Assembly (NCBI GenBank): GCA_025936755.1
Contig: JAICSS010000016.1
Location: 1-59,556, forward strand
DNA: 59,556 bases
Origin: Solirubrobacterales bacterium
GTDB taxonomy: Bacteria; Actinomycetota; Thermoleophilia; Solirubrobacterales; 70-9
Reading direction: 5' to 3'
Part shown: positions 19,702 through 44,922 of the stretch, piece after piece
Layout of the letters: each line of letters opens with the position of its first letter
How positions within the stretch are numbered: position 1 is the first letter of the stretch
Position numbers and translations under genes: made by a program
The notes under the pieces: generated by a model
The model's database searches: none
The model's input: only the letters and a program-made list of their open reading frames with translations
What the model was told of the DNA's origin: nothing

Positions 19702-20973
19702 ATGGCCTGGAACGTGGTGATCGCGGGTGGCGGTTTCGGCGGCGCTGCGGCGGCGCGGGAGCTGGAGCGGGCGATGCCGAAGCAGTCGTCCCGGCTGACC
19801 CTGGTCAACGAGACGAACTTCGCGCTCTACACGCCTTTCCTGCCGGAGGCCGCGGCCGGGACCCTGGAGCCGCGGCACGTGGTGACGCCGCTGCGGGACA
19901 TCCTCAAGCGGACCTACCTGCGGCTCGGCTCGATCGTCGGCCACGACCCCGAGGCCAAGACGGTGACGCTGCGGGCCAAGTACGGCGAAACCGAGCAGAT
20001 CCCGTATGACCAGCTGCTGCTGTCGCTGGGCTCGGTCTCGCGGGTGCTGCCGGTGCCGGGCCTGGCCCAGCATGCGGTCGGCTTCAAGAGCCTCGCCGAC
20101 GCGATCTTCCTCCGCAACCACGTGATCGAGACCCTGGAGGAAGCGAACGCGACCGAGGACCCGGCCCGGCGCGAAGAGCTTCTGACCTACGTCTTCGTCG
20201 GCGGCGGCTACGCCGGCCTGGAGGCGCTGGCCGAGCTGCAGGACTTCGCCGCCGACGCGATGGACAGCTATCCCCGCGCCCGCCTGCACGGGATGCGCTG
20301 GGTCCTGGTCGAGGCGACGAACCGGGTGCTGCCGGAGATCGACCGCGACCTCGGCGCCTACGCCTTGCGGGAGCTGCGCGGCCGCGGCATCGACATCCGG
20401 CTGGAGACGACGCTCGAGGAGGTCACGGCAAGCACCGCCCGCCTCTCCAACGGCGAGGTGCTGCCGACGCGGACCGTCGTCTGGACCGCCGGCGTCGCGC
20501 CGCAGCCGATCCTCAAAGAGCTGAACGTCCCCCTCGACGAGCGCGGCCGGGTCCCGGTCGACTCCCACCTGCGGGTGCAGGGCATGGACTCGGTCTGGGC
20601 GATCGGCGACTGCGCGGCGGTTCCCGACCCGAGCGGCGGCACCTCGCCGCCGACGGCGCAGACCGCGGTCCGGCAGGGCCCGGTGGCAGCGCGCAACATC
20701 GCCGCCGAGCTCGGAATCGGCAGCCCCAAGCCCTACGAGTACCGCTCCGAAGCCGCTTTCGTCAACCTCGGCCGCTACAAGGCCGTCGGCAAGATCGGCG
20801 ACCGCACCTTCCGCGGCTTCCCGGCCTGGTGGCTGGCGCGGACCTACCACATGAGCCAGATCCCGGGCTCGGCCCGCAAGGTCCGCGCCGTCCTCGACTG
20901 GACCGCCGGCCTGCCGTTCCGCCGCGACATCTCCGAGGTCGGCTCGATCGGCCACCCGAAGCCGCTGGTCTAG
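19702..20973 (+). CDS. ndh: Type II NADH dehydrogenase (NDH-2)
   Basis: A 423-residue single-subunit, non-proton-pumping NADH:quinone oxidoreductase on the inner face of the membrane. The N-terminal FAD motif is VVIAGGGFGGAAAARELE (about 5-22), the NADH motif is YVFVGGGYAGLEALAEL (about 160-176), and the second FAD contact is SVWAIGDCAAVPD (about 298-310) with the following TAQTAVRQG. The C-terminal segment FPAWWLARTYHM matches the amphipathic membrane-anchoring region of NDH-2 proteins. It would pass electrons to menaquinone made by the men genes here. Expression appears controlled by the palindrome at 19665-19683. A small zinc-ribbon gene follows 12 bp later. Confidence 0.92.
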   Translation: MAWNVVIAGGGFGGAAAARELERAMPKQSSRLTLVNETNFALYTPFLPEAAAGTLEPRHVVTPLRDILKRTYLRLGSIVGHDPEAKTVTLRAKYGETEQIPYDQLLLSLGSVSRVLPVPGLAQHAVGFKSLADAIFLRNHVIETLEEANATEDPARREELLTYVFVGGGYAGLEALAELQDFAADAMDSYPRARLHGMRWVLVEATNRVLPEIDRDLGAYALRELRGRGIDIRLETTLEEVTASTARLSNGEVLPTRTVVWTAGVAPQPILKELNVPLDERGRVPVDSHLRVQGMDSVWAIGDCAAVPDPSGGTSPPTAQTAVRQGPVAARNIAAELGIGSPKPYEYRSEAAFVNLGRYKAVGKIGDRTFRGFPAWWLARTYHMSQIPGSARKVRAVLDWTAGLPFRRDISEVGSIGHPKPLV

Positions 20974-20985
20974 GAGAATGGGTAC

Positions 20986-32879: not shown

Positions 32880-32888
32880 CGGGGGTGG

Positions 32889-32930
32889 CGTGTCGCCTTA
32901 TGCGTCCGTATGGGCGCAAAAAGCGACACG
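32889..32930. repeat. 42-bp palindrome in the menC-menD gap
   Basis: Outer perfect arms CGTGTCGC (32889-32896) and GCGACACG (32923-32930) enclose a second stem TGCG/CGCA (32901-32904 with 32915-32918) around a 10-nt loop; the segments between the stems are A/T-rich and only partly paired. The outer/inner stem layout resembles the 45-bp repeats at 33532 and 43912, but the sequence differs. Confidence 0.65.
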
Positions 32931-32936
32931 TGCAGG

Positions 32937-34013
32937 CTAGATGCGGTGCGCTTGCAGCGCCTCCTCGTCGATCTCGATGCCGAGGCCCGGCCCGGGGGGA
33001 AGGTGGAGCATGCCGTCGCGGACCTCGCACCCGACCGCGGCGATCGTCGCCGCGAAGAGGCGTTGGGTGGCGAGGCCGTGGGCGAGGTGGAGCCGTTCCG
33101 GGTGTCCGGTCTCGGCGAGGCTGAGAGCGGTCTGCGCCCCCGCGGCGATTCCAACCGGCCCGTCGAGGGCGCTGGTGACGTAGGCGGGGAGGACGCCGGC
33201 GATCCTCAGCGCTTCCTCCGGCCCCCCGACCTTCGAGAGCTTGATCCCGGTGTAGGCGCAGGCCCGGAGCGCAGCGGCTTCCTCGGCCTCGTCGAGAGAC
33301 GCCACGCTCTCGTCGGCCGCGAGGGGGATCGAGGTGGACGCCGCGAGCTCACCCATCTCCTCGAGCGTCCCGACCGGCTGCTCCGCCAACTCGATCTCAT
33401 AGGGCTCGAGTTCGCTCAGGCGCACCTTGGCCGTCTCGAGGTCCCAGGCCGCGTTGGCGTCCACCCGAATCCGCACCTCCGCCCCCAGCGCCTCCCGTAC
33501 CGCTCGCACCTGCTCCACGTCCCGGTTCGCGCGAGTCCGCAAAACCTGACGCATATCGTCAGTTCTCACGGACTCGGCGCCGAGCTTCAGCTTGAACGTG
33601 GTGAACCCATCGGCCGCCCACGCTTCGGCGTCTGCCGCGACCGCCTCCGGCTCGCCCGCCACGAGCGTCGCGTTGCACGGAACGGCTTCGTCCTCGCCGC
33701 CGCCCTCGTCCGCCGCCCTCCTACCCAGCAAGTCCATCCGCGCCACGCTCACCGCACAGCGAGCCGGGGCGGACAGTCCCTCGGCCTCGAGCGCCTGATC
33801 CGCCGCCCAGGCCTCGAGCTCCCGCACGACAAGCGCCAGCCCGGCCCCGCCCCGCAGCGACAGCGGCACCGCTTCGCCCAGGCCCTCGACCCCGTCCTCG
33901 TCCCGCACCCGCAGCAGCACCATCTCCCGCTGCTCCAGCACCCCCCGCGCGGTCGCGTAGGGCCGCTCGAAGGGCAGCGCGTAGGGGATGACCTCGACCG
34001 AGCTGAGGCGCAC
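32937..34013 (-). CDS. menC: o-Succinylbenzoate synthase with repeat-encoded insertion
   Basis: A 358-residue enolase-superfamily enzyme dehydrating SHCHC to o-succinylbenzoate. Catalytic features in order are KLKLG (Lys pair, about 140-144), RIRVDANAAW (Asp, about 176-185), EIELAEQP (Glu), PLAADESV (Asp/Glu) and GIKLSKVGG (Lys). Between KLKLG and RDVEQVRAVRE lies an extra ~15-residue segment (about 147-161, SVRTDDMRQVLRT) encoded by a 45-bp palindromic repeat that also occurs at 43912-43956. The frame is kept, so the enzyme may tolerate it in the loop after barrel strand 2. It starts 12 bp after the menA stop. Confidence 0.93.
   Translation of the reverse strand: MRLSSVEVIPYALPFERPYATARGVLEQREMVLLRVRDEDGVEGLGEAVPLSLRGGAGLALVVRELEAWAADQALEAEGLSAPARCAVSVARMDLLGRRAADEGGGEDEAVPCNATLVAGEPEAVAADAEAWAADGFTTFKLKLGAESVRTDDMRQVLRTRANRDVEQVRAVREALGAEVRIRVDANAAWDLETAKVRLSELEPYEIELAEQPVGTLEEMGELAASTSIPLAADESVASLDEAEEAAALRACAYTGIKLSKVGGPEEALRIAGVLPAYVTSALDGPVGIAAGAQTALSLAETGHPERLHLAHGLATQRLFAATIAAVGCEVRDGMLHLPPGPGLGIEIDEEALQAHRI
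33532..33576. repeat. 45-bp palindromic repeat, copy 1 (inside menC)
   Basis: Outer 8-bp arms CGAGTCCG (33532-33539) and CGGACTCG (33569-33576), inner arms CTGACG (33546-33551) and CGTCAG (33557-33562), 5-bp centre. It matches 39 of 45 positions of the copy at 43912-43956. It is fully inside menC, in frame. Confidence 0.85.
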
Positions 34014-43848: not shown

Positions 43849-43911
43849 AGAGCCGGCACGAACCGCGCACCACAGGCGCGATGTTCCCCGTCAGCCTCGG
43901 TGTATGCCCGC

Positions 43912-43956
43912 CGAGTCCGCAAGAACTGACGCATACCGTCAGGTTTCGCGGACTCG
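43912..43956. repeat. 45-bp palindromic repeat, copy 2
   Basis: Outer arms CGAGTCCG (43912-43919) and CGGACTCG (43949-43956), inner arms CTGACG (43926-43931) and CGTCAG (43937-43942). It matches 39 of 45 positions of the copy inside menC (33532-33576). It ends 4 bp before the GTG start of the AbiEi/DUF559-like gene and may carry its promoter or translation signals. Confidence 0.85.
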
Positions 43957-43960
43957 CGAT

Positions 43961-44896
43961 GTGGAGGCTGCCATCGGCCGACTGGCTGACCGGCAGCACG
44001 GGGTGGTTGGTCGGGCACAGTTGAAGGAGCTGGACCTGGGGGAGGCGGCGATTCGGCATCGGCGGCGTCTCGGCCGGCTGCGACGGCTGAACCCGGGAGC
44101 CTTTGCCGTGGGTCATCGCGCTGTCTCCCGGCAGGGACATTGGATGGCGGCGGTGCTCGCTTCGGGTCCGGAGGCGGTCTTGAGCCACTGGTCGGCTGCG
44201 GCCCTCTGGATGATCCGGCCGAACTCGCGGTCGCTCGTCGAGGTCACGACGGCACACAGGAGCCGATCCTGGAAGGGGATCGAGCGGCATGTGTCTCAGG
44301 TGCCGGCCGACGAGCGGGCGGTGGCGGAGGGGATCCCGGTGACGAGCGTTCCGCGGACGACCTTCGATCTGGCGGCGACTGAGGATGTGGACACGGTGGT
44401 CGCGATGCTGCGGGAGGCGGAATACCTGAACCTCTGGGATCGCTTGTCGCTCTGGGACCTAGTGGAGCGGTATCCGGGGAAACGGGGATCCCGGAAGGTT
44501 CGGGAAGCGCTGGAGCGGTTGAAGGAGGAACCCGCGGGGCGCAAGCGATCGCCACTGGAGGAGCGCTTCAACCCGTTCCTCCGCCGGCACCGCCTGTCCC
44601 TACCCCGCTACAACGACTGGATCTCTGTCGGCAACGACAGGCGCTACCAGGTCGACTGCCACTGGCCCGGCACCAACCAGATCGTCGAGCTGGATGGCTG
44701 GCAAGCCCACAAGGGCCGCGTCGCCTTCCGCGAAGACAAGGCCCGCGACCGCCGCCTCACCGCCGCCGGCTACACCGTCACCCACCTCACCTGGAACCAG
44801 CTCGACGACGAACCCGGGGCCATCGCCGCCGACCTCCGAGCCCTCCTGATGAACAACCAGAACCGCCTGAGCCGGGCCGCTGCAACCTCCACCTGA
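43961..44896 (+). CDS. AbiEi-like / DUF559 (restriction-endonuclease fold) protein
   Basis: 311 residues from GTG 43961. The N-terminal ~60 residues (VEAAIGRLADRQHGVVGRAQ, then IRHRRRLGRLRRLNPGAFA) look like the winged-helix domain of AbiEi-type antitoxins. The C-terminal ~110 residues resemble DUF559/Vsr-like nucleases: YQVDCHWP, IVELDGWQAHKGR and the final TVTHLTWNQLDDEPGAIAAD, with Asp, Glu and Asp-x-Trp in plausible metal-site positions. No partner toxin is adjacent, so this is probably an orphan of the family common in actinobacteria. An ATG at 43904 would translate the palindromic repeat and is less likely. Confidence 0.75.
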   Translation: MEAAIGRLADRQHGVVGRAQLKELDLGEAAIRHRRRLGRLRRLNPGAFAVGHRAVSRQGHWMAAVLASGPEAVLSHWSAAALWMIRPNSRSLVEVTTAHRSRSWKGIERHVSQVPADERAVAEGIPVTSVPRTTFDLAATEDVDTVVAMLREAEYLNLWDRLSLWDLVERYPGKRGSRKVREALERLKEEPAGRKRSPLEERFNPFLRRHRLSLPRYNDWISVGNDRRYQVDCHWPGTNQIVELDGWQAHKGRVAFREDKARDRRLTAAGYTVTHLTWNQLDDEPGAIAADLRALLMNNQNRLSRAAATST

Positions 44897-44922
44897 TCAA
44901 GTAGAGGTTGCAGCGGCCCGGC
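44871..44922 (+). terminator. Very strong hairpin overlapping the end of the DUF559 gene
   Basis: Arms 44871-44889 and 44904-44922 are perfect 19-bp reverse complements with a 14-nt loop that contains the TGA stop codon of the preceding gene. No T-run follows, but the stem is strong enough to stop transcription or block 3' degradation. Confidence 0.65.

Follow-up and report, generated by a model that had tools for sequence, protein, structure and literature searches.

How does a near-perfect DNA palindrome come to lie inside a gene for a core-pathway enzyme with the reading frame left intact? The question is raised by menC in the window, the whole 59,556-nucleotide stretch of a Solirubrobacterales genome that was analysed. 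We compared the genome of the window (G000; 2.4 Mb, contamination estimated at 4%) with that of a sister species (G002) and with further relatives, some of the assemblies being incomplete. The explanation that we regard as somewhat probable, taken as a whole, is that menC has received a solitary copy, itself non-autonomous, of a short mobile palindrome. The features at this locus are:

32937–34013, minus strand: menC (o-succinylbenzoate synthase, enolase superfamily; PF13378 match), the host gene of the insert
33532–33576, minus strand: 45-bp palindrome, type A, with CGAGTCCGC arms, in frame within menC (residues 147–161)
32888–32931, no strand assigned: palindrome belonging to a different type (GTGTCGCCTTATGCGTCCGTATGGGCGCAAAAAGCGACAC), located between menC and menD; the corresponding place in G002 lacks it

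The menC insert and its site in relatives

The menC element (CGAGTCCGCAAAACCTGACGCATATCGTCAGTTCTCACGGACTCG) is a near-perfect palindrome that encodes the peptide ESVRTDDMRQVLRTR, and the minus-strand frame runs through it unbroken. The original prediction of a palindrome of 15 residues kept in frame within menC was correct to the base, and its statement that the catalytic residues are kept was confirmed, as the conserved K141, K143, D185, E211, D234/E235 and K258 are all retained despite the insert. The product resembles enolase-superfamily structures, O-succinylbenzoate synthases among them. When the element and its flanks were folded as one RNA strand, the energy was −41.3 kcal/mol, compared to −22.8 ± 2.9 kcal/mol for shuffled sequences (z −6.4; 0 of 200 shuffles). 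In the structure model of MenC, the block-mean pLDDT over residues 141–160 was 74 and 52 compared to 91 overall, and this low-pLDDT stretch is flanked by a strand (139–143) and a helix (154–176). Given this drop, the insert is read as a poorly ordered loop on the strength of the model, and the suggestion that it forms a surface loop is supported to the extent that it is modelled as a low-confidence loop.

In relatives, the empty site of MenC reads KLKLGA-GDDVGQVRAVREALG. The insert was absent from MenC of the other ten members of the genus that were examined, where the empty site had been anticipated, and also from MenC of more distant relatives. The sole exception was the sister species G002 (MenC 79% identical), which carries a 16-residue insert at the same base with a different palindrome, CGAGTCCGCGAGAACGGTCCCTCAAGAGCCGTTTTCGCGGACTCG, an occupant that the original prediction had missed. 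Compared with its relatives, MenC is longer by a net 16 residues (48 bp), which exceeds the 45-bp element by one codon.

That two species keep an insert at one menC site could be taken to mean that the segment is a functional loop selected at the protein level, with the palindrome incidental. We consider this highly improbable, because the two peptides differ (ESVRTDDMRQVLRTR in G000 and ESARTVPQEPFSRTR in G002) while the DNA is still palindromic, and because near-identical elements also occur between genes and, in an AddA/AddB-like nuclease gene, in a reading frame different from that of the menC copy. The same 15 residues without palindromic DNA were not found in distant MenC proteins among the relatives examined.

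Dispersed copies, insertion polymorphism and shared sites

The type-A palindrome is dispersed in G000, where the menC copy and six close copies elsewhere make seven. The six lie in the window at 43912–43956, in recJ, in the AddA/AddB-like nuclease gene and in three other places, which are most likely outside genes, between them. A covariance model made from 17 palindrome copies added about 9 copies in G000, the majority of which have CGAGACCGC arms where type A has CGAGTCCGC, and in total G000 carries about 16 copies of 45 bp with two main arm types; about 10 copies were found in G002 and one in another genus (G063). Blastn of the type-A element against 40 relatives gave no match, and copies with different cores were revealed only by pattern search and the covariance model. 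A permissive 14-base pattern, run against every genome, gave matches that look like chance and were set aside. Compensatory changes in the stem were more numerous than in shuffled controls, and no conserved unpaired flanking tetranucleotide (GTAG or CGTC tag) was found at the copies examined.

A census of 451 kb of G000 yielded 53 palindromes with at least 16 of 20 pairs, compared to 9 in block-shuffled sequence. The census showed additional types in G000 (GGCGTTCGTCCTTTG.., TGTTCCTTTTGG.., GTTTCCACCC..), and other DUF559 genes are headed by some of these types. Weak palindromes are common at this base composition, and the menC palindrome might be ascribed to chance in coding DNA rich in GC, or to an artefact of assembly; this account is scarcely credible, being refuted by several near-identical 45-bp copies, by the empty sites and by the presence of such elements in relatives that were assembled independently.

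Each extracted copy measures 45 bp, and almost every one lacks stop codons in most of the six frames, so that insertion seldom disrupts the frame of a gene. In-frame copies were observed in at least three genes, menC, recJ and the AddA/AddB-like gene, which establishes that such insertions are tolerated. In recJ and the AddA/AddB-like gene the insertion site is common to G000 and G002 and the palindromes differ. At or close to the same RecJ linker, several more species of the genus have inserts that look like palindromes of different arms (GTGTGGAG..CTCCAC or GGCGGGTTTG..), and in other species this linker is without any insert.

Insertion polymorphism between the sister species was directly visible for several palindromes of other types, which are present in G000 or G002 and absent in the other genome, with flanks that are mostly 75–90% identical. 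The menC–menD palindrome at 32888–32931 is of this kind, and arms of a similar type are found at the head of the DUF559 genes L201/L243 and L258. Insertions in the G000/G002 comparison were frequently located directly 3′ of a stop codon; no target-site duplication was identified at the empty sites compared, and net insertion lengths vary. The proposal that a mobile palindrome has been tolerated as an in-frame peptide gains support from the dispersed copies and from these polymorphisms of other palindromes.

Homogenisation was assessed at seven palindrome sites common to G000 and G002, a single species pair in which some site matches are approximate. Identity between the two species was 0.71 at the same site and 0.70 at different sites (permutation 1707/5000), whereas identity within a genome was 0.84 in G002 and 0.82–0.83 within the types of G000. 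The flanks of the shared sites are mostly 70–92% identical. Because the palindromes are more like those of their own genome than like their counterparts at the same site, despite similar flanks, those at shared sites appear, judged from sequence comparison, to have been overwritten separately in each lineage. Gene conversion or homing would give such homogenisation.

AbiEi–DUF559 genes accompanying the palindromes

The second type-A copy of the window, which matches the menC copy, lies at the start of a gene for a two-domain protein:

43904–44896, plus strand: AbiEi–DUF559 fusion gene (330 aa), candidate mobilising or converting enzyme; PF04480, with PF13338 (AbiEi_4) below the cut-off
43912–43956, plus strand: second type-A palindrome of the window, coding for the N-terminus (about residues 4–18) of the AbiEi–DUF559 protein; putative cognate pair

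The set of palindrome types linked to AbiEi–DUF559 genes across the genome, with one such gene in the window itself, had escaped the original prediction. In G000, a gene of this kind accompanies at least two arm types, A (in the window) and B (at C3). The fusion joins an AbiEi-like N-terminal part to an I-Bth0305I/Vsr-like nuclease domain, and P234, D251, E262, D264 and H269 are invariant. A profile of 38 family members matched structure 3hrl (DUF559), antitoxins of the AbiEi type and the homing endonuclease I-Bth0305I (E 0.002). The AlphaFold model of the window protein (pLDDT 91) fits AbiEi (6y8q) and the catalytic domain of I-Bth0305I (3r3p; TM 0.72 over the target). Relatives on Bacillaceae and Thermus plasmids share just one of the two domains, and no homologue was found when phage records were searched with the window fusion protein. 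A very strong GC-rich inverted repeat directly after the gene (44871–44920) was not taken as a cognate palindrome; it is unlike the 5′ type and is probably a terminator. Very strong GC-rich inverted repeats 3′ of some other DUF559 genes are likewise terminator-like and were not taken as cognate.

The association between palindromes and these genes was quantified over non-redundant, full-length AbiEi–DUF559 genes of the bacterial family, the loci being the best-scoring matches with at most a few per genome; palindromes were scored ungapped, and some with indels (e.g. L221) therefore count as absent. The results showed a palindrome of at least 15 of 20 pairs at the 5′ end of 28 of the 38 genes, compared to 5.9% of random windows and 9.8% of 305 control gene starts, which were added because random windows might understate palindromes near gene ends. 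The difference from the control genes was significant (Fisher 5e-17; 2e-14 without four loci that had been fetched via the palindrome). At the 3′ end, 13/38 genes carry a palindrome at least 70% similar to the 5′ one, and many have a palindrome at the 5′ end only, on or close to the start codon, a position also expected of an autoregulatory operator of AbiEi type. Palindrome and protein also co-vary, as similarity between palindromes tracks similarity between proteins (Mantel r 0.61, reached in 0/5000 permutations), and palindrome types go with clades of the genes. Two other genera have a palindrome that brackets the gene and recurs elsewhere, with no AbiEi–DUF559 gene in the 3 kb fetched around the copies. 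On a Tsukamurella plasmid, the sole outgroup case examined, TGCGGTGGAT..ATCCACCGCA stands on both sides of a DUF559 gene that is 28% identical over part of its length. No case of a whole palindrome–gene–palindrome unit entering an otherwise empty site was demonstrated.

These data bear on two further explanations. According to the first, which we judge rather unlikely, the palindromes are mobile by means of an unrelated transposase or host repair, and the AbiEi–DUF559 genes have them only as operators or were inserted beside them as passengers. Enzymatic evidence tying the AbiEi–DUF559 protein to movement is lacking, and some REP-like repeats, the CGTC repeats, are known to have no enzyme of their own (PMC3733652). 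However, the same palindrome brackets the gene on both sides in the 13 cases above, palindrome and protein co-vary, and cognate copies are dispersed in other genera. A search of G000 for Y1_Tnp (PF01797, the RAYT family), the only transposase family looked for, gave 0 matches, compared to matches in 5/14 control genomes.

According to the second, which seems to us distinctly unlikely, the palindromes are operators for autorepression by the AbiEi-like domain, with a regulon made up of the dispersed copies. AbiEi reportedly binds inverted repeats in its own promoter and so regulates itself (PMC7319586), the palindrome covers the start codon in many cases, and many copies are intergenic. An operator is nevertheless hard to reconcile with copies that lie mid-gene in menC, recJ and the AddA/AddB-like open reading frame, with sister species that differ by insertion, with the frequent position directly after stop codons and with palindromes at the 3′ end of the gene.

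Proposed mechanism and known systems

We lean, with reservations, towards a mobile-palindrome system that resembles REP/RAYT or the Rickettsia RPEs in its working and has a homing-nuclease-like partner; mobility of the palindromes and their association with the gene are shown by the comparisons above, and the role of the nuclease is inferred. The AbiEi-like domain would recognise the arms of a palindrome, the homing-endonuclease-like domain would nick or cut at the palindrome or at an empty target, and repair templated by another copy would write the palindrome into the target. Arm binding, cutting and repair from another copy are all inferences, and no cleavage, binding or movement was observed. 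One and the same process would both spread palindromes and overwrite older ones at occupied sites; such overwriting would explain why palindromes at shared sites match their own genome and not their site. The copies in menC, recJ and the AddA/AddB-like gene would persist because the 15 residues they encode in linkers or loops are tolerated. Specific cutting and spread by repair, as in homing, have only indirect support, from homogenisation within genomes.

The nearest parallel for the in-frame palindromes is the RPE, and for the palindrome-bracketed enzyme gene it is REP/RAYT, both by analogy and without comparison to RPE sequences. Rickettsia RPEs are palindromic repeats found both in intergenic DNA and, with the frame preserved, inside unrelated protein-coding genes (PMC10969869), and the palindromes described here meet this description as a multicopy family. 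They differ in length (45 bp compared to about 150 bp for RPEs) and in their partner, as AbiEi–DUF559 genes are tied to the types here while no enzyme partner is given for RPEs in that source (PMC10969869). Some RPE families are reported to have an unpaired CGTC tag at one of their ends (PMC3733652); the copies here show no conserved tag of this kind. REP/RAYT systems consist of dispersed short palindromes, some of them inside coding regions, and a presumed mobiliser gene bracketed by them (PMC3733652). The likeness is one of arrangement only, with a cognate palindrome bracketing the partner gene and AbiEi–DUF559 in the place of RAYT. The system is not a member of REP/RAYT, as its palindromes lack the conserved unpaired GTAG/CGTC tag and its partner is an AbiEi–homing-nuclease-like fusion.

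The nuclease domain is like the EDxHD/Vsr homing endonuclease I-Bth0305I in sequence, fold and invariant acidic and His residues. The gene differs from genes of that type in lying outside any intron or intein and in being fused to an AbiEi-like DNA-binding part, and its recognition of the palindrome is inferred. The N-terminal part is like the AbiEi antitoxin of the type IV toxin–antitoxin system AbiE in sequence and fold (6y8q), but the fusion has a nuclease domain and its palindromes also lie far from the gene, inside other genes.

No relevant paper on DUF559 and palindromic repeats was found in the open literature, a search that left out most subscription papers and preprints. The palindromes and their partner genes suggest a selfish DNA system that we have not found described before. 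It is possible, although we put this forward only tentatively, that they form a new class of selfish DNA in which homing by a dedicated AbiEi–DUF559 nuclease writes short palindromes into genomes, genes included, and overwrites them time and again where a site is occupied, and in which palindrome and enzyme co-diversify across Actinomycetota. The mobility of in-frame palindromes such as RPEs and of REPs without a transposase is open, and movement of CGTC REPs is stated as an open question (PMC3733652); the fusion protein offers a candidate enzyme of a different class. Each AbiEi–DUF559 protein is predicted to recognise its own palindrome type. A possible role is also suggested for some of the proteins annotated as DUF559, a label that denotes unknown function. 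The in-frame copies also represent a natural case of peptides inserted in core-pathway enzymes.

Several sites in the sister species involve more than a palindrome alone. Three palindromes in G002 (L183, L187 and L190) share similar flanks (gaagattcg..ttttcac), and the sequence suggests that the palindrome is part of a larger repeat. Where G000 has an AbiEi–DUF559 gene with its palindrome (L265:15601–16569), the matching place in G002 (L189:4294–5098) is occupied by an unrelated gene and a solitary palindrome. Positions 20971–20975 of the window are an empty site at which G002 has about 3.7 kb of extra DNA (L186:1340–5033) with a 45-bp palindrome at one edge (L186:4986–5030), and this may be larger cargo associated with a palindrome.
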